Shown here: positions 13,011 to 28,083 of the stretch, in pieces | Numbering within the stretch: the first letter of the stretch is position 1 | Layout: each line of letters starts with the position of its first letter | Source: Rhodospirillales bacterium | Lineage (GTDB): Bacteria; Pseudomonadota; Alphaproteobacteria; Acetobacterales; Acetobacteraceae | Length of the DNA stretch: 31,548 bases | Assembly (NCBI GenBank): GCA_018971455.1 | Contig: JAGXAV010000002.1 | Coordinates: 1 to 31,548, forward strand | Reading direction: 5' to 3' | Notes under the pieces: generated by a model | Databases searched by the model: none | What the model was told of the DNA's origin: nothing | What the model saw: the letters and a program-made list of their open reading frames with translations, nothing else | Made by a program: the position numbers and the translations under genes

Positions 13011-13961
13011 TCAGCCCTGCAGGGCGCTCCACATGGCGAGGTCGCGTTCGGCCGTCCAGATGCGCGGCGTGTCGATGCCGAGCGCCTCGTCATAGGCGCG
13101 CGCGACATTGAAGGGCAGGCAATGCTCATAGATCGCGTAATCGCGGTATTTCGCGTCGCAGACATCGCGCGTCGCCTGGAAGGCTTCCTTCAGGCTGCCG
13201 CCGCGCGCGGCGATCGCGACCGACGGGCGGAAATGATCGACGAGGAATTGCCGGGTCAGCGCCAGGCCCTCCTGCACCTTCGCGCGTGACACCAGCGCCG
13301 CACCACGGCCGGGCACCAACGCCACCGGGTCGAATGCCGCCATGCGGTCGAGCGTCGCCGGCCAATCGCCGTAATGGGCATCGCCGCAATAACAGGCGGA
13401 CTTGTATTCGGCGTCGTCACCCGAGAACATCACCTGCGAATCGGCAACCCAGGCAACGATGTCGCCGGCCGTATGGGCGCGGCCGAGATGCATGAGATCG
13501 ACCCGCCGCTTGCCGAGATAGATCGTCATCGCCCCGTCGAAGGTCAGGTTCGGCCAGGTCAGCCCCGGAATGGTCTCGGGATTCTTGAACAGGCGCGGAA
13601 AACGCTGCTGCTCGGAGGCCCAGTCCTCCGCGCCGCGCTCGTTGATCATGGCGCGGCATTTCGTCGAGGCGACGATGTTCGGCGCGCCGAAGCCCGAGGC
13701 GCCCAGCACGCGCACGGCGTGGTAGTGCGAAAGCACGACGTGGCTGATCGGCTTGTCGGTGACGCCGCGGATCAGCTCGACGACGCGCCGGGCCGCCACC
13801 GGCGTCGCCTGCGCGTCGATGACCATGGCGCTCTCGTCGCCGATGATGACCCCGGTATTCGGGTCGCCCTCGGCGGTGAAGGCATAGAGCCCCGGCCCGA
13901 CTTCGTCGAATGAGATCTTCTTCTCCGCGAGATCCGTGGTGGATGCGAAACCTTTGGCCAT
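13011..13961 (-). CDS. MBL-fold hydrolase of the homogentisate operon, with altered metal site
   Basis: The predicted 316-residue metallo-beta-lactamase-fold protein has unknown substrate. Its first metal site is kept: H79 and H81 in LSHYHAVR, H163 in GRAHTAGD and D182 in MFSGDD. The canonical HxHxDH is here HYHAVR (D to V, H to R), and the usual PGHG near the C-terminus is PGRG, so the ligands of a second metal are missing. The ATG at 13961 follows AAGGGAGAG; an upstream in-frame extension is a shadow of fahA. It is the last gene of the livK-to-MBL operon, 53 bases after fahA. From context it may act on a pathway intermediate or a side product of homogentisate breakdown; this is inference. 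Confidence 0.85.
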   Translation of the reverse strand: MAKGFASTTDLAEKKISFDEVGPGLYAFTAEGDPNTGVIIGDESAMVIDAQATPVAARRVVELIRGVTDKPISHVVLSHYHAVRVLGASGFGAPNIVASTKCRAMINERGAEDWASEQQRFPRLFKNPETIPGLTWPNLTFDGAMTIYLGKRRVDLMHLGRAHTAGDIVAWVADSQVMFSGDDAEYKSACYCGDAHYGDWPATLDRMAAFDPVALVPGRGAALVSRAKVQEGLALTRQFLVDHFRPSVAIAARGGSLKEAFQATRDVCDAKYRDYAIYEHCLPFNVARAYDEALGIDTPRIWTAERDLAMWSALQG

Positions 13962-14014: not shown

Positions 14015-15301
14015 TCAGCCGCGCGGCGCCGGCAGAATGCGCCCGCGCGCCTCGCCGAAGCCGATCCGATAGCCCGCGCCCTCGCACCATCCGCGCATGA
14101 TGATCTCGTCGCCATCCTCGATGAAGCCGCGCCGGCCGCCACCGTGCAGGGTGAGCGGCTGGGCGCCGTTGCGCGTCATCTCCAGCAGCGAGCCGAGACT
14201 GTCCGGCGTCGGGCCGGAGATGGTGCCCGAGCCGAGCAGGTCGCCCACATTCATCGGGCAGCCGCCGATGGCATGATGGGTGAGCTGTTGTGCCGCCGAA
14301 TAATACATGTGGCGGAAATTGGTGTGGCTGATCGCCGTTTCCTCCGCCACGCCGGTGGGCCGCATCGCCACTTCCAGTCGGATGTCGAAATTGTTCGGCG
14401 TCGCCTCGGCCAGATAGGGCAGCAGCGGCGTGACGCGCGGCGGCGTGCCGACGCGGAAGGGCTCCAGCGCCTCGCTCGTCACCACCCAGGGCGAGATGGT
14501 GGTGGCGAAGGCCTTGGACTGGAACGGCCCGAGCGGCACGTATTCCCATTGCTGGATGTCGCGCGCCGACCAGTCGTTGAGCAGCACGTAGCCGAAGATC
14601 ATGTCGTAGGCCTGCGCGGTCGTTACCGGTGTGCCCATGGCGCTCGGCACACCGACGATGGCGCCGATCTCAAGCTCGAAATCGAGCCGCCGGCAGGCCG
14701 CGAGAACCGGCGCCTCGGCCTCCGGCGGTTTGATCTGCCCGAGCGGCCGGCGGATGTCGGTGCCGCTCACCACCACGGAGCTGGCGCGCCCGTTATAGCC
14801 GATCGGAATATGCAGCCAGTTCGCCGTGAGCGCGTTCTTGGGGTCGCGGAACAGGCTACCGACATTGGTGGCGTGGTCCTTGGACGCGTAGAAATCGGTG
14901 AAGCCGCGCACGGCGATGGGCAGGTGCATCCGCGCCGCGTGCTGGGGCACCATCGCCCGGCCGCGCAGCGCCGGGTCGTCGCGCAGCGGGCTGCCCGCGG
15001 CGTCGAGCAGCCCGGCGATACGCGCCCGCATCGCCTGCCAGGCCTGCGGCCCGCGCGCCATGAAGGCGTTGATGTCGGGCTGGTCGAAAACGCGCGGCCC
15101 GGCGGCCGGAGGGAGCAGCCCGGCCTCCTCCAGCACGGCAAGGTCGAGGATCATCTCGCCGATGGCAACGCCGACGCGGCGCGAACCGTCCCCGACGCTG
15201 AAGACGCCATAAGGCAGATTCTGGATCGGGAAGGCGGCCTCCGGCCGGTTCGCCGACTCGACCCAGCTCCGCCGCGCCGGGTCATGGGTGGGGTTCAGCA
15301 T
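14015..15301 (-). CDS. fahA: Fumarylacetoacetase
   Basis: Hydrolyses fumarylacetoacetate to fumarate and acetoacetate, the last step of homogentisate catabolism. The 428-residue protein has a two-domain layout like the animal enzyme. Catalytic and metal residues can be placed by similarity to mouse FAH: D136 and H143 in DFYASKDHATNVGSLF, E209 and E211 in LDFELEIGAIVG, and D243 in LLNDWSARDIQQWEYVPLG. The ATG at 15301 is chosen because GAGGG, overlapping the hmgA stop, precedes it; the frame is open further upstream, but that part lies inside hmgA. The gap to hmgA is only ten bases, so the two are co-translated. Confidence 0.96.
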   Translation of the reverse strand: MLNPTHDPARRSWVESANRPEAAFPIQNLPYGVFSVGDGSRRVGVAIGEMILDLAVLEEAGLLPPAAGPRVFDQPDINAFMARGPQAWQAMRARIAGLLDAAGSPLRDDPALRGRAMVPQHAARMHLPIAVRGFTDFYASKDHATNVGSLFRDPKNALTANWLHIPIGYNGRASSVVVSGTDIRRPLGQIKPPEAEAPVLAACRRLDFELEIGAIVGVPSAMGTPVTTAQAYDMIFGYVLLNDWSARDIQQWEYVPLGPFQSKAFATTISPWVVTSEALEPFRVGTPPRVTPLLPYLAEATPNNFDIRLEVAMRPTGVAEETAISHTNFRHMYYSAAQQLTHHAIGGCPMNVGDLLGSGTISGPTPDSLGSLLEMTRNGAQPLTLHGGGRRGFIEDGDEIIMRGWCEGAGYRIGFGEARGRILPAPRG

Positions 15302-15311
15302 CGCCGCGCCC

Positions 15312-16673
15312 TCACCGCTTGCCCGGATCGAAATGCTTGCGGATGCCGCTCCAGCAATCGACATAATCGCGCTGACGGGTCGGCAGTTCGGCCGCGTATT
15401 TGGTCATCCGCTGGGGGAACCGGGTCTCGAGCATGAACGCCATGGTGTCGGTCTGGCGCACCGGCGCCAGCTCCATGTTGCTGGCATGCTCGAACGCCTC
15501 GGCATCCGGGCCGTGCGGCAGCATGCAGTTGTGCAGGCTCATCCCGCCCGGCACGAAGCCCTTCGGCTTGGCGTCGTACACGCCCCCGATGAGCCCCATG
15601 AACTCGCTCATGACGTTCATGTGGTACCAGGGCGGGCGGAAGGTGTTCTCGGCGACCATCCAGCGATCGCAGAACACCACGAAATCGATGTTTGCCGTGC
15701 CGGGCGTCTCGGAAGGCGAGGTCATGACCGTGAAGATTGACGGATCGGCGTGATCGTAGAGGATCGGGCCGACCGGCGAGTAATGCCGCAGATCGTATTT
15801 GTAGGGCGCGTAATTGCCGTGCCACGCGACGACATCGAGCGGCGAGTGCGCCAGCTCCGTGCGCCACATCGTGCCGCCCCATTTGACGAACATCTCGCAG
15901 GCACCGTCACGATCCTCATAGGCGGCGACGGGCGTGAGGAAGTCGCGCTGGTTGGCCATGCAGTTGGCGCCGATCGGCCCGCGCTCCGGCAGGGTGAAGG
16001 CCGCCCCGTAATTCTCGCACAGATAGCCGCGCGCCGCGGTGGTTCCGGCGCCGAGCTCGACGCGGATCTTCACGCCGCGGGGAATGACGACGATCTCGCA
16101 GGGCTCGGCGTCGATGATGCCGAACTCGGTCGCGATGCGGATGTGCCCCTGCTGCGGGATGAACATCATCTCGCCATCGGCATTGTAGAAATACTGATCC
16201 GTCATCGACCGGGTGATGAGATAGACATGCGCCCCCATGCCGCCCATCGCGCCGGCGTCACCCGCCGTCGTCATGCTGTGCACGCCCTGCAAGAAGGTCA
16301 TCGCCTCTGTCGGCAGTGGCGGCGGATCCCAGCGCATCGGCGCCGGCGCAATTTCGATTTCCGGGCAGGGTGCCGTCCGCCACTGGCCGAGCCCGACCTT
16401 CTCGAACTGGCCCCAGTGCTTGACGGTGGGGCGGATGCGGTAGAGCCACGAGCGCTCATTGGCGACGCGCGGCGCCGTGAAGGGGGAGCCCGAAAGCTGC
16501 TCGGCATAGAGGCCGTAGGGGCATTTCTGCGGACTGTTGCGGCCAACGGGCAGTGCGCCGGGCAGTGCCTCGCTTTCGAATCCGTTGCCGAAGCCGGACA
16601 TGTAGCCGCGGTTGCCCTCGGCGATGGAGGCCGCCTGCTCCCGGGCGGGCCGGGCGATGCTGCGCTTGCTCAT
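15312..16673 (-). CDS. hmgA: Homogentisate 1,2-dioxygenase
   Basis: Non-haem Fe(II) ring-cleavage enzyme that converts homogentisate plus O2 to maleylacetoacetate. The 453-residue protein opens with the family signature [20 protein letters not shown] (24-43). The iron ligands known from the human enzyme are readable: H351 and E357 in [18 protein letters not shown], and H387 in [20 protein letters not shown] precedes the ATG. It lies between the DUF2783 gene (40-base gap upstream) and fahA. The downstream isomerase gene (maleylacetoacetate isomerase) is not in this window. Confidence 0.97.
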
Positions 16674-16713: not shown

Positions 16714-16911
16714 TCATTCGCCCTGCCGGGCGCGGGTCATGGCTTCCCTCAGGATCGTCAGGTCGCCGATATGGTTGGCCAGCAGCAGGATGAGCTTGGC
16801 ATTGACCATGCGGCTTTGCTCGTCACTGAGATCGCGATGCATCTCGATCAGGGCTTCGTAGAAATCATCCGGCGCGGCGATGTTGGCCGCGGTGTTCAGC
16901 GTGTTCGCCAT
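16714..16911 (-). CDS. DUF2783 small protein paired with FAD hydroxylase 1
   Basis: The predicted 65-residue, mostly helical protein matches what I know as DUF2783, a small family encoded beside flavoprotein aromatic hydroxylases. The core is [20 protein letters not shown] followed by [20 protein letters not shown]. The ATG at 16911 follows a strong GAGGAGG that overlaps the stop region of the hydroxylase (ten-base gap); the open frame upstream of it is a hydroxylase shadow. A paralogue sits at 24641-24835, also directly after a hydroxylase gene. The role is unknown; a small partner or stabilising subunit of the hydroxylase is a reasonable guess from the conserved pairing. Confidence 0.8.
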
Positions 16912-16921
16912 GCTTGCCTCC

Positions 16922-18568
16922 TCAGGACCGGGCGGTGGCGCGCGCCAGTGCCGCGGCCACACGCGCCGGATCGAATTCGCGCCAGCGCGCGCAGACATGC
17001 TGGTCCGGGCGTAGCAGATAGGTGGTGCCTGGGCGCGCGTCGTAGCGCGCGGCGAGCAGCCCGGCCGCATCCTCGAGAACCGTCTCGCCGCCGGCGTGCG
17101 TCCGGCCGTCACCCTCGCGCAGCACGCGCACCACACGCAGCGGAATCCCCCCGCACGGCACCGCCCCCACCGCGCCTTCGCCGAAGGTGACGAGCGTGAA
17201 CTCGTCGCCGACCGTGGCGAGGAACCAGCCCGGTGCGCCGTCGCGCCGAACCGGGGCATCGGCGGCCGGCGCGCCCGGAACCATCAATCCGGCGAAGGGC
17301 TCGGAGTCGGGCGTGTTGAGGCTCGATCCGCGCAAGGTCGCCGGCACCGAGAGCCGGCCGGAATTGACCAGCTGGCGGGCGAAGGCATGCTCCTTGGACA
17401 GCTTCAGCACGGCATCGCGGAAGGTGCGGCTGACCTCGCTTTTCGGGGTGATGAAATCGGTCGCCCGCGTCGAGTTGAGGATGTTCTCGTCGGCGGCGTA
17501 TTCGCGCTCGCGCGCATAGCTGTCGAGCAGCGCGTCCGGCGCCTGGCCGGCCAGCACGAGACGCAGCTTCCAAGCCAGGTTCTCGGCATCCTGCACGCCG
17601 CTATTGGCGCCACGCGCGCCGAAGGGCGAGACGCCATGCGCGCTGTCACCGGCGAAGATCACCCGCCCATGGCGGAATTTTTCCATGCGCAGGCAGGCGA
17701 AGGTATAGACGCTGCACCATTCGAGATCGAACGCGACGTCCTGGCCGAGCAGCGCCTGCACGCGCGGAATGACGCGCTCGGGCTGCATCTCGGCCTTGGG
17801 GTCGGCCTCCCAGCCAAGCTGGAAATCGATGCGCCAGACATTGTCGGGCTGACGGTGCAGCAGCACGGATTGGTGGCGGTGAAAGGGCGGGTCGAACCAG
17901 AACCATCGCTCGGTCGGAAACTCCGCCTTCATCTTCACATCGGCGATGAGGAAGCGGTCGCGGAAGACGCGCCCCTTGCTTTCCAGACCCATGAGGTTGC
18001 GCACCGGGCTGCGCGACCCGTCGGCGGCGACGAGATAGTCGCAGAGCAACTCATAGGGGCCGTCCGGCGTCTCGATGGTCAGCTGCACGCCATCGTCGCG
18101 CTGCTCCAGCCCGGTGACCTTGTTCTTCCAGCGGATGTCGAGATTGCCGAGCGCGCGCGCACGGTCCAGCAGATAGCCCTCGGCGTAGTATTGCTGGAGG
18201 TTGATGAAGGCCGGACGGCGATAACCGCTCTCGGGAAGCAGATTGAAGGAATAGACCTGTTCCTCCTGGAAGAAGATCTTGCCGAGATTCCACGACACGC
18301 CCGTCTCGACCATGCGCTCGCCGCAGCCGAGCCGGTCCCAGATCTCCAGCGTGCGCTTGGCAAAGCAGATTGCCCGCGACCCCACCGAGAGCGTGTTGTC
18401 GTCATCGAGCAGCACGACGGCCACCCCCTGCTGCGCCAGATCGATCGCCAACGACAGGCCCACCGGGCCGGCGCCGACGATGATGACCGGATGGTGCACA
18501 GGACTGGCGGCGCGCTGGTCGGGCGAGGCGACGTAATCGAGTGTGAGCGTCTGGTAGTCGATCTGCAT
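16922..18568 (-). CDS. FAD-dependent aromatic hydroxylase 1 (PHBH/MhpA-type)
   Basis: Class A flavoprotein monooxygenase that would hydroxylate an aromatic acid using NAD(P)H and O2. The 548-residue protein has the FAD dinucleotide motif GAGPVG (32-37), the DG motif in LVAADGSRSPVR (D183, G184), the GD motif in GRVIFAGDSAHGVSPFGARG (G307, D308), and a C-terminal thioredoxin-like domain as in phenol and 3-hydroxyphenylpropionate hydroxylases. Being co-transcribed with hmgA and fahA, it most likely makes homogentisate, for example from 3-hydroxyphenylacetate, but the substrate is inferred from context only. It starts 32 bases after the hemerythrin-livF stop and is followed by its DUF2783 partner. 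A paralogue lies at 24832-26526. Confidence 0.9.
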   Translation of the reverse strand: MQIDYQTLTLDYVASPDQRAASPVHHPVIIVGAGPVGLSLAIDLAQQGVAVVLLDDDNTLSVGSRAICFAKRTLEIWDRLGCGERMVETGVSWNLGKIFFQEEQVYSFNLLPESGYRRPAFINLQQYYAEGYLLDRARALGNLDIRWKNKVTGLEQRDDGVQLTIETPDGPYELLCDYLVAADGSRSPVRNLMGLESKGRVFRDRFLIADVKMKAEFPTERWFWFDPPFHRHQSVLLHRQPDNVWRIDFQLGWEADPKAEMQPERVIPRVQALLGQDVAFDLEWCSVYTFACLRMEKFRHGRVIFAGDSAHGVSPFGARGANSGVQDAENLAWKLRLVLAGQAPDALLDSYAREREYAADENILNSTRATDFITPKSEVSRTFRDAVLKLSKEHAFARQLVNSGRLSVPATLRGSSLNTPDSEPFAGLMVPGAPAADAPVRRDGAPGWFLATVGDEFTLVTFGEGAVGAVPCGGIPLRVVRVLREGDGRTHAGGETVLEDAAGLLAARYDARPGTTYLLRPDQHVCARWREFDPARVAAALARATARS

Positions 18569-18600: not shown

Positions 18601-19932
18601 CTACATGCCGAGATAGGCTTTCTTGACCTGCTCATTGTCGAGCAGATCCGGCCCGGTTCCGCTGAGCAGAATGCGGCCGGTTTCCATGACGTAGCCGCGA
18701 TCGGCGATGGCCAGCGCCGCGCGCGCATTCTGCTCGACCAGCAGGATGGTGATGCCGCTGTCGCGCAGCCGGCAGACGATGCGGAAGATCTCCTCGACGA
18801 TTAGCGGCGCGAGACCCATGCTCGGCTCGTCGAGCAGCAGAAGCCGGGGCTTGCCCATCAACGCGCGCCCGAGCGCGAGCATCTGCTGCTGCCCGCCCGA
18901 AAGCGTTCCCGCCGGTAGCCGGCGCTTCTCCTCCAGCACCGGAAAGAGGGCGTAGATCTCGCCGAGCCCGGAGGCGATCTCGCCGGCCGGCCGCGTATGC
19001 GCGCCCATCAGCAGATTGTCCTCGATGCTCATCGGCGCGAAGACCTGCCGCCCCTCGGGAACCTGGCAGATGCCAGCACGCACCCGCGCTTCCGGAGCAA
19101 GTCGCGTCATCGTGCGGCCAGCGAAGGTGACGTCGCCGCCGGTCACCGGCTGCACGCCGGACAGGCAGCGCAGCAGGGTCGTCTTGCCGGCCCCGTTCGC
19201 GCCGACGAGGACGACGAGCTGGCCCGCATGCACTTCGAGCGAGACGTCGCGCAGCGCCTCGATGCGCCCGTAGCGCGTGCTGATGCCGCGCACCGCGAGC
19301 ATCGGCTCGCCGGTCGGCGCGGCGACGGCGCGGCGCCCGGCGATCGGCAGCACGTCGCGCTGTCCGCCCAGTCCGAACGGGGCAGGCAGAAGCTGGGTGA
19401 TGCGCTCGCGCAGCTCGGCGATGCGGGCATCGCCGTGAGCGACATCGAGCGGATCGGCATGCGCGGCGAAGGCCGCATCGACGTCATCCCAGTCCTCGGC
19501 GGTCAACGCCTCCCGGGCCAGCGCGAAGGTGCCCTCCTCCTCGAGGCGCATATGCTCGTCGAGATGTTGGCGGAAGCTGTGGATTTCGGCCACCAGCCGG
19601 CCGATCTGCGGGGCGGCGGCGATGCCGGGTTCGAGCAGCATGCGCTTCATCGTCTCGAGCTGCCGCGGGCCCATTTCGTGATCGCGATGCAGGCGGTCGA
19701 GAACGGCGCCGGCGGCGTTGCTGCGCTGGCGCAGCCTGGCGAAGAGGAAATCATCCTCCTTGGGGTGGTGGAAGCGCTCGGTGAAGGTTTCGAAATAGGC
19801 GATGATGAGATCGGCCGTGTGCAGGTCGGCGGCACTGGCGCCGCCGCCAATGGTCTCGGCGAGCGCGCCGAGCGCGCTGGCCAGCCGCCGCATGTTGGCG
19901 TGCTCCGCCTCGATGATGTCCAGTGCGCGCAT
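18601..19932 (-). CDS. livF: Hemerythrin (HHE) domain fused to LivF-type ABC transporter ATPase
   Basis: The 443-residue protein combines two modules. Residues 1-175 form a hemerythrin-like four-helix domain with candidate di-iron ligands H11, H55 with E59 (HHPKE), H82/H85 (LHRDHE), H123 and H127 with E131 (HLDEHMRLEEE). Residues 211-443 are a complete LivF: Walker A GANGAGKTT (244-252), Q-loop region VPEGRQVF, signature LSGGQQQ (344-350), Walker B LLLLDEP with E369, and the LivF-typical LLVEQN. A Pro/Arg/Ala linker joins them. GGAGG seven bases before the ATG at 19932, inside the end of livG, supports translation of the whole fusion; the internal ATG for a plain LivF (19302) has no good ribosome-binding site. 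LivF normally lacks this N-terminal domain. I infer a di-iron oxygen- or redox-responsive importer ATPase. Confidence 0.92.
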   Translation of the reverse strand: MRALDIIEAEHANMRRLASALGALAETIGGGASAADLHTADLIIAYFETFTERFHHPKEDDFLFARLRQRSNAAGAVLDRLHRDHEMGPRQLETMKRMLLEPGIAAAPQIGRLVAEIHSFRQHLDEHMRLEEEGTFALAREALTAEDWDDVDAAFAAHADPLDVAHGDARIAELRERITQLLPAPFGLGGQRDVLPIAGRRAVAAPTGEPMLAVRGISTRYGRIEALRDVSLEVHAGQLVVLVGANGAGKTTLLRCLSGVQPVTGGDVTFAGRTMTRLAPEARVRAGICQVPEGRQVFAPMSIEDNLLMGAHTRPAGEIASGLGEIYALFPVLEEKRRLPAGTLSGGQQQMLALGRALMGKPRLLLLDEPSMGLAPLIVEEIFRIVCRLRDSGITILLVEQNARAALAIADRGYVMETGRILLSGTGPDLLDNEQVKKAYLGM

Positions 19933-19935
19933 GGC

Positions 19936-20697
19936 CTAGCCTCCGGTCCCGAGATAGGCGGCGATGACGTCCGGATTCTCGCGGATTTCGCGCGGTGTGC
20001 CCTCGGCGAGGCGGCGGCCATAATTGAGCACGAGGATGCGGTCGGAGATGTTCATCACGAGCTTCATGTCATGCTCGACCAGCACGACGGTAACGCCCGC
20101 CGGCGGCAGTTTCTGGATCAGCGCGTCAACCTCATGCGTTTCGGAGTCGTTGAGCCCGGCCGCCGGCTCGTCGAGCAGCAGAAGCTTCGGCTTGGCCGCG
20201 AGCGACCGCGCGATCTCGAGGCGCTTGAGCGCGCCATAGGGCATTTCGCTGGCATGCGCATCGATGTAGGCGCCGACGCCGACGAAGCGCATCAGCTCGG
20301 CCGCCTCCTCGCGGCACGCCCGATCGGCGCGGCGCAGGGTGGGCAGGTGGAACATGCCGGCGAACAGGCCGTGATTGAGGCGCAGATGTGCACCCACCAT
20401 CACGTTGGCGATGGCGCTCATGTTCATGCAGATCTGCAGGTTCTGGAAGGTGCGGCTCATCCCCAGGCGCGCCAGCCGTTCCGGCGGCTGGTGGTTCGCC
20501 TCGGTGCCGGCGAAGCGCATCGTCCCGGAACTCGGCGTGTAGACGCCGGTGATCAGATTGAACAGCGTCGTCTTGCCGGCGCCGTTCGGGCCGATCACCG
20601 CGTGGATGGTGCCCGCCTCGATCTGGAAGGAGACGTCATCGACCGCCTTCACGCCGCCGAACTCGCGGGTGAGGTGGGAGACGGCTAGCAGGCTCAT
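19936..20697 (-). CDS. livG: Branched-chain-type ABC transporter ATP-binding protein LivG
   Basis: One of the two nucleotide-binding subunits of a HAAT-family importer. The 253-residue protein has Walker A GPNGAGKTTLFN, a Q-loop in SRTFQNLQ, the LivG-type signature MPYGALKRLEIARSL in place of LSGGQ, Walker B LLLLDEPAAGLN, and the switch His in VLVEHDMKLVMNISDRILVL. Its start overlaps the livM stop by four bases (ATGA), and hemerythrin-livF begins three bases after its stop, so translation is coupled on both sides. With livF it would power uptake of the operon's substrate. Confidence 0.95.
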   Translation of the reverse strand: MSLLAVSHLTREFGGVKAVDDVSFQIEAGTIHAVIGPNGAGKTTLFNLITGVYTPSSGTMRFAGTEANHQPPERLARLGMSRTFQNLQICMNMSAIANVMVGAHLRLNHGLFAGMFHLPTLRRADRACREEAAELMRFVGVGAYIDAHASEMPYGALKRLEIARSLAAKPKLLLLDEPAAGLNDSETHEVDALIQKLPPAGVTVVLVEHDMKLVMNISDRILVLNYGRRLAEGTPREIRENPDVIAAYLGTGG

Positions 20698-21638
20698 GCC
20701 CGCCTCCGCCGCAGGGCGAGCCGGCGCAGGGCGAGGGACGGCACCAGGCCGCGCGGCAGGAAGATCATCGTCACGATCAGGATCAGGCCGAACACCACGG
20801 TCTCGCCGCCCTCCAGCCCGGCCAGCACCTGCGGCAGCGCGGTGAGCAGGACGGCGCCGAGAAGCGAGCCATAGATCGAGGCCATGCCGCCGATCACCAC
20901 CATGGTTACCAGGGCGATGGAGTGGAAGAAATCGCTGAGCGTCGGCGTCACGAAAGCGAGGTAATGGGCCGTCACGCTGCCCATGATGCTGGTCAGCACG
21001 GCCGAGAGCACGAAAATGCGCACCTTCGCCGCCGTCGTGTCGATGCCGGCGACGCGGGCGGCGATCTCCGAGCCGTGGATCGCCTGCAAGGCCCGCCCGG
21101 CCGGCGAATCGATGAGGTTGAGCGCGAGCCAGGTGGTGCCGAGCAGCAGCACCGCGACCACCCAGTACCAGGCCTGCTCGCTGGCGATTTCGAAGCCGAA
21201 CAGCGAGAAGTTCGGCACCGACATGCCGTCCGGCCCGCCGGTCAGCGCGACCTCGTTGACCAGCACGATGGAAATGATGATCCCGAGGCCGAGCGTTGCC
21301 ATGGCCAGGTAATGGCCCTTCAGGCGCAGGATTGGCCGCGCCACCAGCAGCGCGAGTCCGCCCGAGCCGATGGCGCCCGCCAGCATCGCCGCGGCGGACG
21401 GCCAGCCATAATTCGCGGTCAGGATCGCCGAGGCATAGGCGCCGATGCCGAGGAACCCGGCATGGCCGAGGCTGATCTGCCCAGTATAGCCGATCAGAAG
21501 GTTGAGCCCGATCACCACCACGGCGTTGATCGCCATGCGGATCGCGACATCGAGGTAGAAATCATTCGGCAGGATGGCGGGCAGCACGGCGAGGACGACC
21601 AGCAAGGCGCCGAGGCCGAAGGAGCGGGGGAGCGCCAT
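20694..21638 (-). CDS. livM: Branched-chain-type ABC transporter permease LivM
   Basis: Inner-membrane permease of the importer. The 314-residue protein is very hydrophobic with about eight to ten membrane segments. It carries the family signature LLIGYTGQISLGHAGFLGIG and the later loop SPAGRALQAIHGSEIAARVAGID that contacts the ATPase. The C-terminus is Arg-rich (LALRRLALRRRRA). The stop overlaps the livG start (ATGA) and the start lies two bases after the livH stop. Confidence 0.94.
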   Translation of the reverse strand: MALPRSFGLGALLVVLAVLPAILPNDFYLDVAIRMAINAVVVIGLNLLIGYTGQISLGHAGFLGIGAYASAILTANYGWPSAAAMLAGAIGSGGLALLVARPILRLKGHYLAMATLGLGIIISIVLVNEVALTGGPDGMSVPNFSLFGFEIASEQAWYWVVAVLLLGTTWLALNLIDSPAGRALQAIHGSEIAARVAGIDTTAAKVRIFVLSAVLTSIMGSVTAHYLAFVTPTLSDFFHSIALVTMVVIGGMASIYGSLLGAVLLTALPQVLAGLEGGETVVFGLILIVTMIFLPRGLVPSLALRRLALRRRRA

Positions 21639-21640
21639 GA

Positions 21641-22513
21641 TCAGACGCGCTCCGTCGTCTTGGCCCCGAACAGGCCGTTGGGCAGGAAGAACAGGACCAG
21701 CAGGATGAGCACGAAGGGCAATGCATCCTTGTAGGAGGAGGAGAGGTAGCCCGCCGTCATCGCCTCGACGATGCCAAGCAGCAGCCCGCCCGCGACGGCG
21801 CCCATGCCGCTGCCGAGCCCGCCCAGCGTGGCGGCGACGAAGCCCTTCATGCCGAGCATGATGCCGCTGTCATAGGAGGCGCCGGTGATCGGCGCCACCA
21901 GCACGCCGCCGAGCGCGCCCAGCGCCGCGGCGAGACCGAAGCTCGCCAGCAGCACGGCGCGGGTGTTGACGCCGACGAGCTGGGCGGCGAGGCGGTTGTA
22001 GGAGGTGGCGAGCATCGCCTTGCCGGCGCGCGTGCGGCCGAAATACCAGGCCAAAGCTGCAACGGTGGCCAAGGTCGTCGCCAGAATCCACAGGCTCTGC
22101 GGCAATATGGTCGCCCCGAGGGCGGAGAACGGCGCGTCGCCGCTGAAGGAGGGCAGCGGCCGGGTGTTCTTGCCGAGGAAGATCTGCACCAGGCCGCGCA
22201 TCACCAGCGAGACGCCGATGGTGATGATGATCAGCGTCGTCACATCCGCGTTCTTCGCCGGCTCGATGGCGAGTTTCTCGACGAGCAGGCCGGCGATGGC
22301 GGTCACCGCGATGGCCAGCGGCACGGCCAGCATCAACGGCACGCCATGGGCGTTGAAAAACGCCGCCGCCATGCCGCCCAGCATGATGAACTCGCCCTGG
22401 GCGAAATTGATCACGTTGCTGGCATTGTAGATCAGCGCGAAACCGAGGGCGGCGAGCGCGTAGATCGCGCCGCTGGTCACGCCGGAGAACATGAACTGGA
22501 CGAACTCGGACAT
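21641..22513 (-). CDS. livH: Branched-chain-type ABC transporter permease LivH
   Basis: Inner-membrane permease that pairs with LivM. The 290-residue protein opens with GVTSGAIYALAALGFALIYN and NVINFAQGEFIMLGGM, both strong LivH signatures. It contains the cytoplasmic coupling loop TRAGKAMLATSYNRLAAQLV and several long hydrophobic segments, with the GMKGFVAATLGGLGSGMGAV stretch towards the C-terminus. It follows livK after 57 bases that hold a strong hairpin (22538-22564). Confidence 0.94.
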   Translation of the reverse strand: MSEFVQFMFSGVTSGAIYALAALGFALIYNASNVINFAQGEFIMLGGMAAAFFNAHGVPLMLAVPLAIAVTAIAGLLVEKLAIEPAKNADVTTLIIITIGVSLVMRGLVQIFLGKNTRPLPSFSGDAPFSALGATILPQSLWILATTLATVAALAWYFGRTRAGKAMLATSYNRLAAQLVGVNTRAVLLASFGLAAALGALGGVLVAPITGASYDSGIMLGMKGFVAATLGGLGSGMGAVAGGLLLGIVEAMTAGYLSSSYKDALPFVLILLVLFFLPNGLFGAKTTERV

Positions 22514-22570: not shown

Positions 22571-23728
22571 TCACTTCACCAGCGTCCAGGTGCCGTTGTG
22601 GATTTCCAGCAGCCGCGCGGCCGAGACATCGAGGCCCATATGGTCGGTGGGCGACATGTTGACGATGCCGCTGATGCCGACAAAGCCCTTGGTCTGCTCG
22701 ATGGCGTCGCGCACTTTCGCCTTGTCGAAGCTGCCGGCGCGCTTGACGGCATCGACCCAGATCTCGAAGGCGGTGTAGGTGTCGCCGCCGAAACCCGAGA
22801 CCGGCTCATGGTATTTCGTGGTGTAGGCCGTCACGTAATCCTCGACGACCTTCTTCTGCGGATCACCGGCGGGCAGCTTGTCGGCGATCAGCAGCGGCGC
22901 GGAGGGCAGGCGCACGCCCTCGGCGGCCGCACCGGCCAGCTTGATGAATCCCTCGGAGGCGACGCCGTGGGACTGATAGAGCGGCATCTTCATGCCGAGC
23001 TGCGCGTAGTTCTTGGTCACCAGCGCCGGCCCTTGGCCGAAGCCGAAGACGAACAGCGCCTGCACCGCCGGGTTGCTCTTGATTTTCGTGAGCTGGGCGG
23101 TGACGTCGGTGTCCTTCGGACCATAGGTCTCGTCGGCAACCAGCGTGATGCCGTATTTGGCGGCAACCAGCTTGGACTGCTTGCGGCCCGAAATGCCGAA
23201 GCCGGACGTCTCCGACAGCAATGCCACCTTGGTGAGCCCACGCTGCTTCATGTCGGCAAAGACGCGCTCGGCGGCCATGCGGTCGGTATAGGGCGTCTTG
23301 AAGACCCATTTCTTCACCGGCTCGACAATCTCGACCCCGCCGGCGAGCGAAATGAACGGCACCTGCGCGCGATCGACCAGCGGGATCATCGCCATCGTGC
23401 TGCCGGTGGTGGACCCGCCGATGATGACATCGACGTGATCATTGTCGAGCAGGCGCTTGGTGAAGCCGTTCGCCTTGCCGGCCTCGCCGCCGTCGTCATA
23501 GTGCACGAGGACCAGCTTGCGGCCGAGCAGGCCGCCCTGGGCGTTGACCTGGTCGATATATAACTGCAATGTCTTCAGCTCGGGATCGCCGAGGAAGGAG
23601 GCGGGCCCGGTCACCGACAGAACCGCGCCGATCCTGACGGGCCCCTGCGCCGCGGCCGGTCCGGCCATGGCCACGGCGAAGCCGGCGGCGAGTGCCGCGC
23701 CCAGCGAATTGCGCCTGGTGATGCTCAT
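22571..23728 (-). CDS. livK: Periplasmic substrate-binding protein of the Liv-type importer
   Basis: Binds the imported ligand in the periplasm and delivers it to LivHM. The 385-residue protein has a signal peptide MSITRRNSLGAALAAGFAVA ending near AAAQG. The twin arginine followed by a hydrophobic run makes Tat export possible, although the Sec route cannot be excluded. The mature part opens with RIGAVLSVTGPASFLGDPE and has the Peripla_BP_6 fold features GGLLGRKLVLVHYDDGG and VIIGGSTTGSTMAMIPL. The ATG at 23728 is chosen because GGGAGAG precedes it and it starts the signal peptide; the frame runs on to 23824. Given the downstream genes, the ligand is probably an aromatic acid rather than an amino acid (inference). 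It is the first gene of the ten-gene operon. Confidence 0.94.
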   Translation of the reverse strand: MSITRRNSLGAALAAGFAVAMAGPAAAQGPVRIGAVLSVTGPASFLGDPELKTLQLYIDQVNAQGGLLGRKLVLVHYDDGGEAGKANGFTKRLLDNDHVDVIIGGSTTGSTMAMIPLVDRAQVPFISLAGGVEIVEPVKKWVFKTPYTDRMAAERVFADMKQRGLTKVALLSETSGFGISGRKQSKLVAAKYGITLVADETYGPKDTDVTAQLTKIKSNPAVQALFVFGFGQGPALVTKNYAQLGMKMPLYQSHGVASEGFIKLAGAAAEGVRLPSAPLLIADKLPAGDPQKKVVEDYVTAYTTKYHEPVSGFGGDTYTAFEIWVDAVKRAGSFDKAKVRDAIEQTKGFVGISGIVNMSPTDHMGLDVSAARLLEIHNGTWTLVK

Positions 23729-23812
23729 GTCGTTTGTCTCTCCCTTTTTGCCGCGCGGCGTATTGGTATCATTCGTAACTTTGTGGATCGGACGGATCAA
23801 GCCTGCACGCTG

Positions 23813-23834
23813 TTTTGCATGCAAATTCGCATGC
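23813..23834. promoter_or_regulatory. Operator O1: paired GCATGC boxes in the livK promoter
   Basis: TTTTGCATGC is followed by six bases and GCATGC; the two boxes are 12 bp apart start-to-start, about one helical turn. The first box is the centre of a perfect 12-bp palindrome, TTTGCATGCAAA (23814-23825). The pair sits exactly between the -35 and the -10 region of livK, where binding would block RNA polymerase. The same arrangement recurs at 26555-26576. The adjacent GntR/FCD protein is the first candidate binder. Confidence 0.65.
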
Positions 23835-23871
23835 TGTCAAGCGTCTTGTGCGAATCATTTTTGAACACGAT

Positions 23872-23884
23872 ATTGCATGCGAAT
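23872..23884. promoter_or_regulatory. Operator O1b: single GCATGC box near the gntR start
   Basis: ATTGCATGCGAAT is close to a palindrome and its half GCATGCGAAT is the reverse complement of ATTCGCATGC at 23825-23834. It ends 14 bases before the chosen gntR start codon, so it is well placed for autoregulation. Confidence 0.5.
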
Positions 23885-23898
23885 TTCCGGCACCGGTC

Positions 23899-24627
23899 AT
23901 GGACCATGCCGCCACCAGCCCGTTCGCGAGGGGCCACAACTTGCTGAGCAGACACGCAAACGACCTGGCCGACCTGCCGCTGGGCGAGACCGCGCGGCCG
24001 GCCCGCACGAGCCACGATGTCTATGACCGGCTGCGCCTGGCCATCGTCACCGGCGAGATCCGCCCCAACGCCCCGCTCATCGAGGCCGACCTCGCCGGCG
24101 CCCTCAACGTCAGCCGCACGCCGATCCGCGAGAGTCTCCAGCGCCTCAGCGCCGACGGCCTCATCGTGCCGCGCAAGCGCGGCTGGGCGGTGCGGGAATA
24201 TTCGCGCGAGGAGATCCAGGAGAGCTACGAGGTGCGCGCCGCGCTCGAGGGCTATGCCGCCTTCCTCGCCGCCGCCCGCGGCACCGATGCCGAACTTGCC
24301 GCCATCGCCGCCGTGCAGGCGGAGCGCGATCGCGCCGCGAGCCCCGGCCGCGAGTTCCGCGTGCGCACCAACCGCGCCTTCCATGACGGCATCATCGCCG
24401 CCGCCCGCAATGCGCGCCTGACCGAGGCGATCTTCCGCGCCGGGCAGTTCTACTTCAACGCGCGCATCGCGGCGATGACGACGGAGGAGGATTTCCGCTC
24501 CAACCAGGCCGATCACGGCCGCATCGTCCGCGCCCTGCTGGCGCGCGACGCGAGTGCCGCCGAACAGGCCATGCGCGCGCACATCCTGCACACCTTCACC
24601 GTTTTCCAGCGCCTCGGCCCGCTTTGA
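23899..24627 (+). CDS. GntR-family transcriptional regulator (FCD type)
   Basis: Ligand-responsive DNA-binding protein, probably the regulator of the divergent liv/hmg operon. The 242-residue form has a winged helix (about residues 38-105) with DVYDRLRLAIVTGEIRP and the recognition region ADLAGALNVSRTPIRESLQR, then DGLIVPRKRGWAVREYS. The C-terminal FCD domain is all-helical and includes NRAFHDGIIAAARN and ADHGRIVRALLARDASAAEQ, whose His residues usually help bind a metal. The ATG at 23899 is the likeliest start, but it lacks a ribosome-binding site and the frame is open from 23815. It converges with the second DUF2783 gene. Confidence 0.92.
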   Translation: MDHAATSPFARGHNLLSRHANDLADLPLGETARPARTSHDVYDRLRLAIVTGEIRPNAPLIEADLAGALNVSRTPIRESLQRLSADGLIVPRKRGWAVREYSREEIQESYEVRAALEGYAAFLAAARGTDAELAAIAAVQAERDRAASPGREFRVRTNRAFHDGIIAAARNARLTEAIFRAGQFYFNARIAAMTTEEDFRSNQADHGRIVRALLARDASAAEQAMRAHILHTFTVFQRLGPL

Positions 24628-24650: not shown

Positions 24651-24835
24651 ACCGGCAGATCCTCCAGCGCCACGGCCAGGCTTTCGCGAAACGTGGCGAT
24701 GCCGTCCAGCCGCTGCGCGAGGAGGAGGGCGAGCTTGGCGAGCAGCAATGCCTCGCCGGAGGGCCCGACGCGGTCGATCGCCGCGGCCAGATCGTCATAG
24801 GCGCGTTCGAGATCCTCGAAGGGCATCGTCGTCAT
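24641..24835 (-). CDS. DUF2783-like small protein paired with FAD hydroxylase 2
   Basis: The predicted 64-residue helical protein resembles the DUF2783 protein at 16714-16911: KLALLLAQRLDGIATFRESL here aligns with [20 protein letters not shown] there. The ATG overlaps the hydroxylase 2 stop by four bases (ATGA) and is preceded by GGGGAGG, so the two are translationally coupled. Its function is unknown; the repeated pairing implies a role with the flavoprotein. Confidence 0.78.
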   Translation of the reverse strand: MTTMPFEDLERAYDDLAAAIDRVGPSGEALLLAKLALLLAQRLDGIATFRESLAVALEDLPVAG

Positions 24836-26526
24836 CCGGTCCTCCCCTGGCTGCGGCCCAAGGCAAGGGCCAGCACGTCGGTCACCTCTGTCGCCTCCAG
24901 CCGGCGCCAGCGCCCGGCGACGTGCATGTCCGGGCGCAGCAGATAGAAGCTGCCCGGCCCGGCGGCCAGCCGGCGGGACACCGTGCCGTGCGGATCGGCG
25001 ATGGCGCCGGCGGGCGCCGCGGCGCCCGGGGCGGCGATGGTGACCAGCGTGAAGCGCGGATCGAGGGCGCCGAGGCGGGCCGCCAGAGCCGGGTCGAGGG
25101 GCGCGCCATCGCTGAAATAGAGCCCGGCGAAACCCGTGCCGACATGGTCGAGCAGGTAGCTGCCATCGGCCAGATGCGCATTCACGCAGGCGCTGCCGGC
25201 CACCGCGCCGCCGCTGAACTCGCTGTCGCGCCGCCGCGCCGTCTCGCCCAGCGTCTCGCGATAGGTGTAGGGCACCATCAGCCGCGGATCGACGAAGCGG
25301 CGCACGAAATCATGCCGCAGCGCCAGCGACAGCACCGCCGCGCGCATCAGCGCCACCCCGCGCGTCGGCGGCGTCATGAAGCGCGCGCTTTTGCTGGCAT
25401 TGGCGAAGACGTCGAGCGTCGCGCCGCGCCGTTCGGGCGTGTAGCTGTCGAGCAGCCCCGCCCCCGCCTGCCCGCCCAGCACGTAGCCGAGCTTCCAGCC
25501 GATGTTGAAGGCGTCGGCGAGGCCGTTGTTCAGCCCGCGCACGCCGAAGATCGGCACGATATGCGCGCTGTCGCCGATGAAGATGGTGCGCCCGTGCGTG
25601 TAATCGTCGAGGCAGAGCGTGTTGGCCGTGTAGATGCTCCACCATTCGAGCTCCCACGGCTTGTCATGGCCGATATCCTTCAGGATGGCGCCGACGCGGG
25701 CGCGGATATTGGCCTCCTCGACGGCCGCCTCCGCGCTCTCGCCGTCGCGCAGCTGATAATCGACGCGCCAGATATTGTCGGGCTGCTTGTGGATCAGCAC
25801 CGTGCCGCCGGGGTTGGAGGCCGGATCGAACAGGGCGCGGCGCTCGGTGGGATAATCGTGCTCCATGCGCACATCGGCGATGACGTAGCGCCCCTCGTAA
25901 TTCTCGCCCTGCAGGCGCAGGCCGAGCAGGCCGCGAACGGCGCTGCGCGCGCCATCGGCGGCGAGCACGTATTGCGCCGTCAGCGGATAGGCGCCGAGCG
26001 GCGTCTCGATGCGGAGGCGCACGCCGTCCGGCTGTTCGGCGATGGCGGAGACCTCGCTCTCCCAGCGCGCGTCGATCAGCGGGCTGCGCGCCACCGCGTC
26101 CCACAGGTACTGCTCCAGATATTGCTGCTGGAGGTTGTACATGGGCAGGTATTTCTCGTCGTCGCTGTGCGGCATGTCGAAGCGGTAGATTTCGCGGCCG
26201 CGGAAGAAGCTGCGCCCGCGCCGCCAGCCCAGCGACTTGGCGAGGAAGGGGGCGACGGCGCCGATCTGCTCGAAGATGTGGTAGCTCGCCCGTGCGATGC
26301 ACGTCGCCCGGCTGCCGTCGTTGAAGGTCGGCTTGCGGTCGAGCAGCACGCTGCGGATGCCGTAGCGCGCCAGCGCCAGCGCCGCCGTCATGCCGACCGG
26401 GCCGCCGCCGACGATGGCGACCGGATGGGTTATGGTCTGGCCGTCCAGTTCCGGCACGGGCCGGGCGCTGAAATGCGGGTAGTGGAAGTAGAGGGATTCG
26501 AGGGGTCCCCGGCCGGCTGGTCGCAT
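24832..26526 (-). CDS. FAD-dependent aromatic hydroxylase 2 (PHBH/MhpA-type)
   Basis: Class A flavoprotein monooxygenase, 564 residues, paralogous in layout to hydroxylase 1 but clearly diverged. It has the FAD motif GGGPVG (40-45), the DG motif in VLAADGARSAVRG (D191, G192), the GD motif in GRTIFIGDSAHIVPIFGVRG (G318, D319), and a C-terminal thioredoxin-like domain ending LLRPDMHVAGRWRRLE, very like the end of hydroxylase 1 (LLRPDQHVCARWREFD). The ATG at 26526 is chosen for the strong AGGAGGAG before it; an upstream ATG at 26574 lies inside the operator. The substrate is unknown; a related phenolic acid feeding the same homogentisate route is a reasonable inference from the shared operator. 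Confidence 0.9.
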   Translation of the reverse strand: MRPAGRGPLESLYFHYPHFSARPVPELDGQTITHPVAIVGGGPVGMTAALALARYGIRSVLLDRKPTFNDGSRATCIARASYHIFEQIGAVAPFLAKSLGWRRGRSFFRGREIYRFDMPHSDDEKYLPMYNLQQQYLEQYLWDAVARSPLIDARWESEVSAIAEQPDGVRLRIETPLGAYPLTAQYVLAADGARSAVRGLLGLRLQGENYEGRYVIADVRMEHDYPTERRALFDPASNPGGTVLIHKQPDNIWRVDYQLRDGESAEAAVEEANIRARVGAILKDIGHDKPWELEWWSIYTANTLCLDDYTHGRTIFIGDSAHIVPIFGVRGLNNGLADAFNIGWKLGYVLGGQAGAGLLDSYTPERRGATLDVFANASKSARFMTPPTRGVALMRAAVLSLALRHDFVRRFVDPRLMVPYTYRETLGETARRRDSEFSGGAVAGSACVNAHLADGSYLLDHVGTGFAGLYFSDGAPLDPALAARLGALDPRFTLVTIAAPGAAAPAGAIADPHGTVSRRLAAGPGSFYLLRPDMHVAGRWRRLEATEVTDVLALALGRSQGRTG

Positions 26527-26590
26527 TCTCGTCTCCTCCTGCACGCCGTCTGTTTTTTGCATGCTGTTGTGCATGCCGTTGCGGATGCTA
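26527..26590. promoter_or_regulatory. Operator O2: paired GCATGC boxes between hydroxylase 2 and luxR
   Basis: TTTTGCATGC, six bases and GCATGC (26555-26576) repeat the exact spacing of operator O1 at livK, and a degenerate third box GCGGATGC follows (26581-26588). On the minus strand both sites continue into an A-rich run and GCGTGCAGG. O2 ends about 28 bases before the hydroxylase 2 start codon. It overlaps the potential start codons of the LuxR-type gene on the plus strand, so both genes could be controlled from it. Confidence 0.65.
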
Positions 26591-27415: not shown

Positions 27416-27462
27416 GTCTAGTCTGCGCCGCCAGCGCCGAACGGCGCGCCGAGGAGGACGCC

Positions 27463-28083
27463 ATGAACGCCGCTGACATCTCCGCCGCCCGCACCGCGGC
27501 CGTCGCCGCCGCCATCGAGCGCATCCGGGCCATCGAGCGCGCCCACGGCATCACCCGCCAGGCGCTGGAGGCGATCCGCGGCGAGATGCTCGCCCTGGCC
27601 GCGCAGGAGCACCTCTTCCCCTCGGCCGAATTCGCCCCGCCCCCGGCCGGCGAGAAGGGCAGCCGGCGCTACCTGTTGCAGGAGGATGCGGATAACCGCT
27701 TCGCCCTCTATCTCAACGCGCTCAATCCCGGCAACGAGACCAAGCCGCACGATCACACCACCTGGGCGGTGGTGGTCGCCGTCGAGGGCCAGGAGCTCAA
27801 CAAGGTCTATCGCCAGGAGCCCGGCCGGCTGGTGGTCGATCACGAGGTGATGGTCGAGCCGGGGCGCGGCATCGCGCTGATGCCGACAGACATCCACTCC
27901 ATCCACACCACCGGCGCGGTGCCGACGCGGCATTTGCACATGTACGGCCTGGCGCTGGAGAAGCTCGACAACCGCCTCGCCTACGATCCGGCGACCGGCG
28001 CCGCCGTGCCCTACAACCGCAATTTCATGCAGCCGACCGCCACCACGCGCCCCGCCGGCGCGCCGGCCCCGCGCCCCGCATGA
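27463..28083 (+). CDS. Cysteine dioxygenase-like cupin (thiol dioxygenase)
   Basis: Non-haem iron thiol dioxygenase, 206 residues, that would oxidise a small thiol (cysteine or 3-mercaptopropionate) to its sulfinate with O2. The three-His iron site is readable: H96 and H98 in ETKPHDHTTWAVVVAVEG, and H145 in LMPTDIHSIHTTG, followed by the conserved HLHMYG. The N-terminal helix-rich part and the Ala/Pro-rich tail are ordinary. GAGGAGG stands before the ATG at 27463. Its stop overlaps the rhodanese start by four bases (ATGA), so thiol oxidation and sulfur transfer are probably linked. The substrate cannot be decided by eye. Confidence 0.85.
   Translation: MNAADISAARTAAVAAAIERIRAIERAHGITRQALEAIRGEMLALAAQEHLFPSAEFAPPPAGEKGSRRYLLQEDADNRFALYLNALNPGNETKPHDHTTWAVVVAVEGQELNKVYRQEPGRLVVDHEVMVEPGRGIALMPTDIHSIHTTGAVPTRHLHMYGLALEKLDNRLAYDPATGAAVPYNRNFMQPTATTRPAGAPAPRPA

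Follow-up and report, generated by a model that had tools for sequence, protein, structure and literature searches.

Hemerythrin domains, which often serve as sensors of oxygen, redox state or iron, occur fused to signalling outputs in several described proteins. The Vibrio cholerae hemerythrin-diguanylate cyclase and DcrH are such hemerythrin-output fusions and carry an O2-binding set of five histidines, while the hemerythrin domain of FBXL5 is an iron- and O2-responsive switch. We know of no hemerythrin domain on the ATPase of an ATP-binding cassette (ABC) importer. Here we describe such an arrangement in a 31,548-nucleotide stretch of a Rhodospirillales genome (contig JAGXAV010000002.1, the whole stretch being called the window below), in which one gene encodes a hemerythrin domain of the HHE kind followed by a LivF-type importer ATPase. 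The HHE-LivF fusion was confirmed as genuine and is not an artefact. Our best reading, to which we assign a probability of roughly 0.4, is that the HHE domain is a di-iron regulatory domain on the importer's ATPase, responsive to O2, redox state or iron.

The fusion differs from each of its closest counterparts. It shares with the LivF of branched-chain amino acid ABC importers a complete ATPase domain and a place as the last gene after livHMG, but it has about 205 extra N-terminal residues with the HHE domain, lies in an aromatic-catabolism context and scores below the NCBIfam equivalog cut-off. Like the V. cholerae cyclase and DcrH, it attaches a hemerythrin domain to a protein with a catalytic or signalling function, although their output is signalling and not transport. 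The iron-sulfur repair proteins YtfE, RIC and ScdA have HHE helices and 4-His/2-Glu ligands in common with it; however, they have an N-terminal domain of their own and no fused ATPase, whereas here the HHE match starts as early as residue 3, with the ATPase behind it. The structures of NMB1532 (2p0n) and PF0695 (3cax) have been solved, their function being unknown, and, unlike the fusion, their entries name no ATPase.

The fusion gene and its recurrence

The gene and its parts are as follows (pLDDT, predicted local distance difference test score).
18601..19932, minus strand: HHE-LivF fusion gene, 443 residues (open reading frame, Pfam, 20 further fusions)
19387..19932, minus strand: hemerythrin (HHE) domain, residues 1-182, with four long helices at 2-30, 34-70, 72-100 and 107-142 (Pfam, predicted structure)
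19303..19383, minus strand: linker, residues 184-210, with disorder predicted at 184-202 (pLDDT <50 there)
18604..19302, minus strand: LivF-type ATPase (nucleotide-binding) domain, residues 211-443 (Pfam, NCBIfam, fold match 1ji0)
19177..19203, minus strand: Walker A, GANGAGKTT (sequence)
18889..18903, minus strand: ABC signature, LSGGQ (sequence)
18820..18840, minus strand: Walker B and the Glu after it, LLLDEPS (sequence)

An initial annotation of this DNA had proposed an uninterrupted 443-residue frame joining a hemerythrin domain to a complete LivF behind a strong ribosome-binding site, and all of these points were borne out. The frame is open throughout 18601..19932 on the minus strand, and the translated plus-strand frame has stops in the same interval; third-position guanine-plus-cytosine content is even (0.76-0.95 in 12 blocks across the gene, linker included), so no hidden frame change is present. 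Pfam places Hemerythrin (PF01814) at residues 3-138 with 52 bits, against a cut-off of 25.3, and ABC_tran (PF00005) at residues 227-371 with 101.6 bits. The best NCBIfam model is LivF PRK11614 (residues 210-442), whose score of 261.4 bits falls short of the equivalog cut-off of 441; the ATPase, complete as to its Walker A, signature and Walker B motifs, is thus LivF-like but not the E. coli LivF in the strict sense. Initiation at the ATG is plausible, as GGAGG stands 7 nt before it, and since the livG stop lies only 3 nt upstream of the ATG, livG and the fusion are probably translated in tandem. The HHE domain modelled alone (residues 1-190) gives a predicted four-helix bundle with a pLDDT of 91.9 and a predicted template modelling score (pTM) of 0.88. 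The fusion is also the sole Pfam hemerythrin match in the window's genome (721 contigs, 85.78 percent complete).

The initial annotation had called for a search for this architecture in other genomes, and it turned up 20 further fusions, each in one frame, making 21 with the window. When species genomes were scanned with the HHE domain as query, 16 loci came up, nine with HHE and LivF in one open frame and seven without; the nine belong to Bradyrhizobium mercantei, a Polaromonas, four Rhodoferax, a Burkholderiales, a Rhodocyclaceae and a Zoogloeaceae genome. A second scan, with a profile built from the fused HHE domains, matched 17 of 299 genomes from the family of the Polaromonas genome at E <=1e-45 (nine fusions, eight of them new, and eight that are not fusions) and 3 of 248 from the family of the Bradyrhizobium genome, all fusions and two of them new. 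Among 72,556 plasmid records subjected to a translated search, 639 matched, and in just one, the complete plasmid AZO_p1 of Azospirillum lipoferum 4B, did the match span 80 percent or more of the query, with 59.9 percent identity over all 443 residues. Closer to the window, and with its own HHE domain as query, which covers HHE types near it, overlapping samples held no other fusion in 397 genomes of its family (one other match, standalone) or 385 of its class (29 other genomes matched), and no other fusion or match in 250 of its order. The class-sample loci checked were L032-L062, six class matches lacking a separate locus (one of them falls within L035). The genome profile searches scored part of the candidates per genome (e.g., up to 10, 12 or 9), and misses are possible.

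The Walker A, signature and Walker B motifs are present in all 21 fusions, and the linker region (183-212) measures 23-31 residues in every one of them.

Candidate metal site and selection

The putative iron ligands lie on all four helices.
19900..19902, minus strand: H11, candidate iron ligand, helix 1 (invariant in 21/21 fusions)
19756..19770, minus strand: HHPKE, residues 55-59, with H55 and E59 as candidate ligands, helix 2 (H55, H56 and E59 invariant in 21/21)
19678..19680, minus strand: H85, candidate ligand, helix 3 (invariant in 21/21)
19540..19554, minus strand: H127-x3-E131, candidate ligands, helix 4 (invariant in 21/21)

The full set of di-iron ligands claimed at the outset held as regards these six candidates (H11, H55, E59, H85, H127 and E131; 4-His/2-Glu), which are unchanged in every fusion, but not as regards the extra histidine of an O2 carrier. 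In O2-carrying hemerythrin, an H-x3-H motif on helix 3 supplies the fifth histidine; all 20 fusions compared have Leu at position 81, one turn before H85, and this histidine is therefore absent. The 4-His/2-Glu pattern (H, HxxxE, H, HxxxE) is that of YtfE and FBXL5, and the ligand set thus appears to resemble that of sensor or iron-handling HHE proteins rather than that of an O2 carrier. Judging from its family, the domain would bind two irons and change state with O2, redox conditions or iron supply. Profile matches were obtained to NMB1532 and, weakly, to YtfE (E 0.0015) and the sensor FBXL5. In the fold comparison, FBXL5, a eukaryotic F-box protein, and 6q09 score only just above unrelated bundles (12.3); YtfE is absent among the best 50 fold matches listed, which excludes nothing.

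The ratio of nonsynonymous to synonymous substitution rates (dN/dS) of the HHE part is 0.067-0.093 in four close pairs (L067, L069 and L071 supply three of these) and that of the ATPase part is 0.009-0.054 in the same pairs; the HHE value exceeds the ATPase value in every pair compared. These ratios indicate constraint on both parts, weaker on the HHE part, which is under purifying selection in close pairs.

Importer partners and aromatic context

In the window the fusion is the last gene of livKHMGF and is followed by genes of aromatic catabolism, all on the minus strand (FAD, flavin adenine dinucleotide).
22571..23824, minus strand: livK, substrate-binding protein (Pfam)
21641..22513, minus strand: livH, permease (Pfam)
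20694..21638, minus strand: livM, permease (Pfam)
19936..20697, minus strand: livG, partner ATPase subunit without HHE domain (Pfam; orthologue upstream of all 20 other fusions)
16922..18568, minus strand: FAD-dependent hydroxylase, PRK08132 subfamily (Pfam, NCBIfam)
16714..16950, minus strand: DUF2783 small protein (putative start), adjoining the hydroxylase (Pfam; same neighbour in 9/19 other fusion loci)
15312..16673, minus strand: hmgA, homogentisate 1,2-dioxygenase (Pfam, NCBIfam)
14015..15364, minus strand: fahA, fumarylacetoacetase (Pfam, NCBIfam)
13011..13943, minus strand: metallo-beta-lactamase-fold protein (Pfam; homologue in 8/19 other fusion loci)

Orthologous livH, livM and livG genes accompany the fusion at all 21 loci (upstream of it in all 20 relatives), and livK lies within the stretch at 11 of the 21 (10 of the 20 relatives, with full-length-like scores). 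From the neighbouring genes, the importer's substrate is probably an aromatic acid, phenylacetate or hydroxyphenylacetate-like. We scored stretches of 6.7 to 31.5 kb, over four groups of loci, against a reference set of aromatic-pathway genes drawn from the window, from fusion loci L065, L069, L070, L076, L129 and L182, and from L135 and L177; loci that supply a reference gene match by construction, and the counts are biased to that extent. At least one reference gene was found at 19 of the 21 fusion loci, or 18 of 21 without the metallo-beta-lactamase-fold protein and PaaG, the least specific references, compared with one of eight control loci holding unfused LivF from the window's relatives (chosen from 29 such loci, L003-L031, and mostly nearest in the tree). 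The aromatic setting seen by the initial annotation is thus general, with the reservation that the set comes partly from the fusion loci themselves. Its suggestion that the fusion might track with hmgA fared otherwise: HmgA occurs in the window only, with no match in 19 other loci or the A. lipoferum stretch (7.8-29.3 kb).

The oxygenases themselves vary by locus, from a flavin hydroxylase with HmgA to PaaA/PaaC to a Rieske oxygenase with catechol 1,2-dioxygenase, while the fusion is constant. Curated models above cut-off in the sampled loci include PaaN, PaaK, PaaG, PaaI and 3-oxoadipyl-CoA thiolase, PaaH falling just short of its equivalog cut-off (665.2 versus 669.4 bits), and Pfam families above cut-off include PaaA_PaaC, PaaX, DUF2783 and FAA_hydrolase. 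The A. lipoferum stretch encodes catechol 1,2-dioxygenase, muconate cycloisomerase and a Rieske oxygenase. At L131 a flavin reductase adjoins a protein resembling acyl-CoA dehydrogenases, and the two may form a two-component monooxygenase. Separately, a 342-residue protein with no Pfam or NCBIfam match lies beside a 2Fe-2S/FAD reductase at L070:992-3081, and may be an undescribed oxygenase next to paa genes; L126 has a similar pair by eye.

Possible roles of the hemerythrin domain

The recurrence of the fusion in other proteobacteria suggests uptake tuned to oxygen or iron, and a regulatory role is suspected above all because the fusion is the one feature common to loci whose oxygen- and iron-dependent pathways differ. 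According to this reading, the LivF-type ATPase of a Liv-type importer bears an N-terminal HHE domain on what is predicted to be a flexible linker of about 25 residues; the domain, if it behaves as its family does, would bind two irons and shift state with O2, redox or iron supply; that shift might affect how LivF assembles, hydrolyses ATP or couples to LivHM; and uptake could thereby be raised or lowered to match the adjoining O2- and iron-dependent catabolism. If the domain does gate uptake, it would link oxygen, redox or iron state directly to the motor of an ABC importer, bypassing transcription, and aerobic degraders would benefit from halting aromatic-acid uptake and activation once oxygen runs out. 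The more specific version is rather doubtful, namely, that the ATPase carries its own di-iron oxygen or redox sensor, that O2 gates aromatic-acid uptake posttranslationally, and that Liv importers and HHE proteins were brought together more than once, by fusion in one group and as adjacent genes elsewhere.

Several observations weigh against a regulatory role, the strongest being that orthologous importers exist without the domain, some of them in paa clusters. LivG was found at E <=1e-80 in 26 of 299 genomes of the Polaromonas family, followed by the fusion in 9 and by an ordinary LivF in 17; among the ten LivG with the highest scores, nine precede a fusion. Six of the 17 unfused loci were fetched, and four (L176, L177, L179 and L181) match the aromatic set: L176 and L179 are paa clusters, the latter with PaaA/PaaC, and L181 has a PaaK-like gene. 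The other two, L178 and L180, have no match; L178 looks anoxic, with genes for benzoate-CoA ligase and a 2-oxoacid:ferredoxin oxidoreductase. The fused-HHE profile had no match at E 0.001 in three of four genomes with an unfused orthologue and one, standalone, in the fourth (G846). The context is therefore tied to the transporter family no less than to the HHE domain, and O2-dependent catabolism does not need the latter. We accordingly rejected the aromatic context as proof of O2 gating, and of the gating first proposed, the recurrence beside varied oxygenases stands, while a strict form is weakened by the unfused importers in paa clusters. Moreover, an oxygenase of the reference set occurs in only 10 of the 21 fusion loci, within stretches of 7.8-31.5 kb; two fusion loci, L131 and L132, match nothing in the set; the whole two-domain model has a pTM of 0.59, too low to position the domains reliably, and no predicted contact between HHE domain and ATPase; and in five distant pairs, where dS is large, the HHE dN/dS is 0.126-0.594, the maximum being that of the window and L122 with dS near saturation.

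Descent is part of the same difficulty. In a tree of ATPase parts that also held one LivG and 33 unfused LivF, a single branch (84/94) set the 20 fusions apart from the rest, but when 17 more unfused LivF were added, two of these, L157 and L160, nested inside the larger fusion group (94/95). This group holds 17 fusions, including L121 of the Bradyrhizobium family, and is not purely betaproteobacterial. One of the nested LivF lies in a paa cluster (L157/L176) and the other about 6 kb from hpaD (L160/L177). Their position implies that the HHE domain was probably lost there, at least once; the fusion label needs three changes on the extended tree, which may fit a single origin followed by loss or repeated origins. 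In a tree of HHE domains, those of 20 fusions group together with L062 and L096, two domains whose placement is poor (Shimodaira-Hasegawa-like approximate likelihood ratio test 95, short search). Given orthologues without it, the domain is optional and dispensable, and it probably modulates the pump rather than forming an essential part of it. The natural series of fused importer, unfused neighbour and lost domain makes its role testable. The LivF of L157, which belongs to the paa cluster L176, retains a short leader in place of the HHE domain. The best LivF match of a Variovorax plasmid (67.2 percent, H2) is likewise unfused.

Among the alternatives, it is unlikely that the domain has no part in regulating transport and is instead a module for iron handling or protection (YtfE/RIC-like repair, or nitric oxide or peroxide scavenging), held at the membrane near iron-dependent catabolic enzymes. 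The ligand pattern would suit such a module, but its fusion to one importer family would be left unexplained, the narrow range of linker lengths looks as if placement relative to the ATPase matters, and the N-terminal domain of YtfE is absent.

It is unlikely that the HHE domain instead serves as a metal-binding docking or assembly module, which helps LivF to pair with LivG or recruits a catabolic enzyme, any O2 response being incidental. In the 19 relatives scanned, one ATPase subunit carries the domain and its partner does not, and standalone HHE genes follow other Liv operons, both of which would suit docking. The nine fusion-bearing genomes of the species scan have 25 HHE matches, the 9 fusions and 16 others; five of the latter (L089, L090, L091, L097 and L100) come directly after another operon's LivF, with gaps of 105 nt at L097 and 17 nt at L100, and at L096 an HHE gene directly follows what by eye is a LivM-type permease. 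In the trees, the paired LivF lie far from the fused LivF and the five paired HHE domains likewise stand apart from the fused ones, so that separate-gene pairing and fusion look independent. Separate-gene pairing is repeated but not general: eight standalone HHE genes of the Polaromonas family have no LivF-like ATPase within about 1.5 kb on each side. Against docking stand the six invariant ligands, which argue for a working metal site, and at least one probable loss among orthologues, which argues against a need in assembly.

Far less probable is a near-neutral fusion kept by descent, in which the domain has no present role in transport. Its probable loss with retention of the operon and its faster evolution than the ATPase part in every pair are in keeping with this, but the low dN/dS in close pairs and the invariant ligands are not. 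Finally, although the window's genome is fragmented and residue 211 of its fusion is Met, we give almost no credence to a sequencing error that joined two genes, rejected on account of the 20 further fusions, one on a complete plasmid, or to an internal start yielding only a LivF-sized product, since (counting Met/ATG starts only) residue 211 is Met in just 2 of 21 fusions and residues 195-214 are free of Met in 18 of 21, for which reason a conserved internal ATG for LivF alone was also rejected.

Some further observations concern HHE genes and the window at large. Standalone HHE genes stand directly behind Liv-type importer genes at L133-L137 and L096, in Rhodoferax, Burkholderiales and Zoogloeaceae genomes; the Liv operon of L135 includes a ring-hydroxylating dioxygenase large subunit, nearest to AndAc and below cut-off. 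By eye, L037, L093, L102, L103 and L104 show one other fusion, an HHE domain behind a universal-stress-protein-like domain, and L073 has a standalone HHE gene 100 nt after an apparent large permease of a tripartite ATP-independent periplasmic (TRAP) transporter. In the window, a GntR-like regulator (23815-24627, plus strand) is divergent from livK, and a second FAD hydroxylase of the PRK08132 family occupies 24832-26574 on the minus strand. Beyond these, at 27418-29672 on the plus strand, a 221-residue protein with no Pfam or NCBIfam match, by eye of the cysteine-dioxygenase type, is followed by a protein with four rhodanese stretches.
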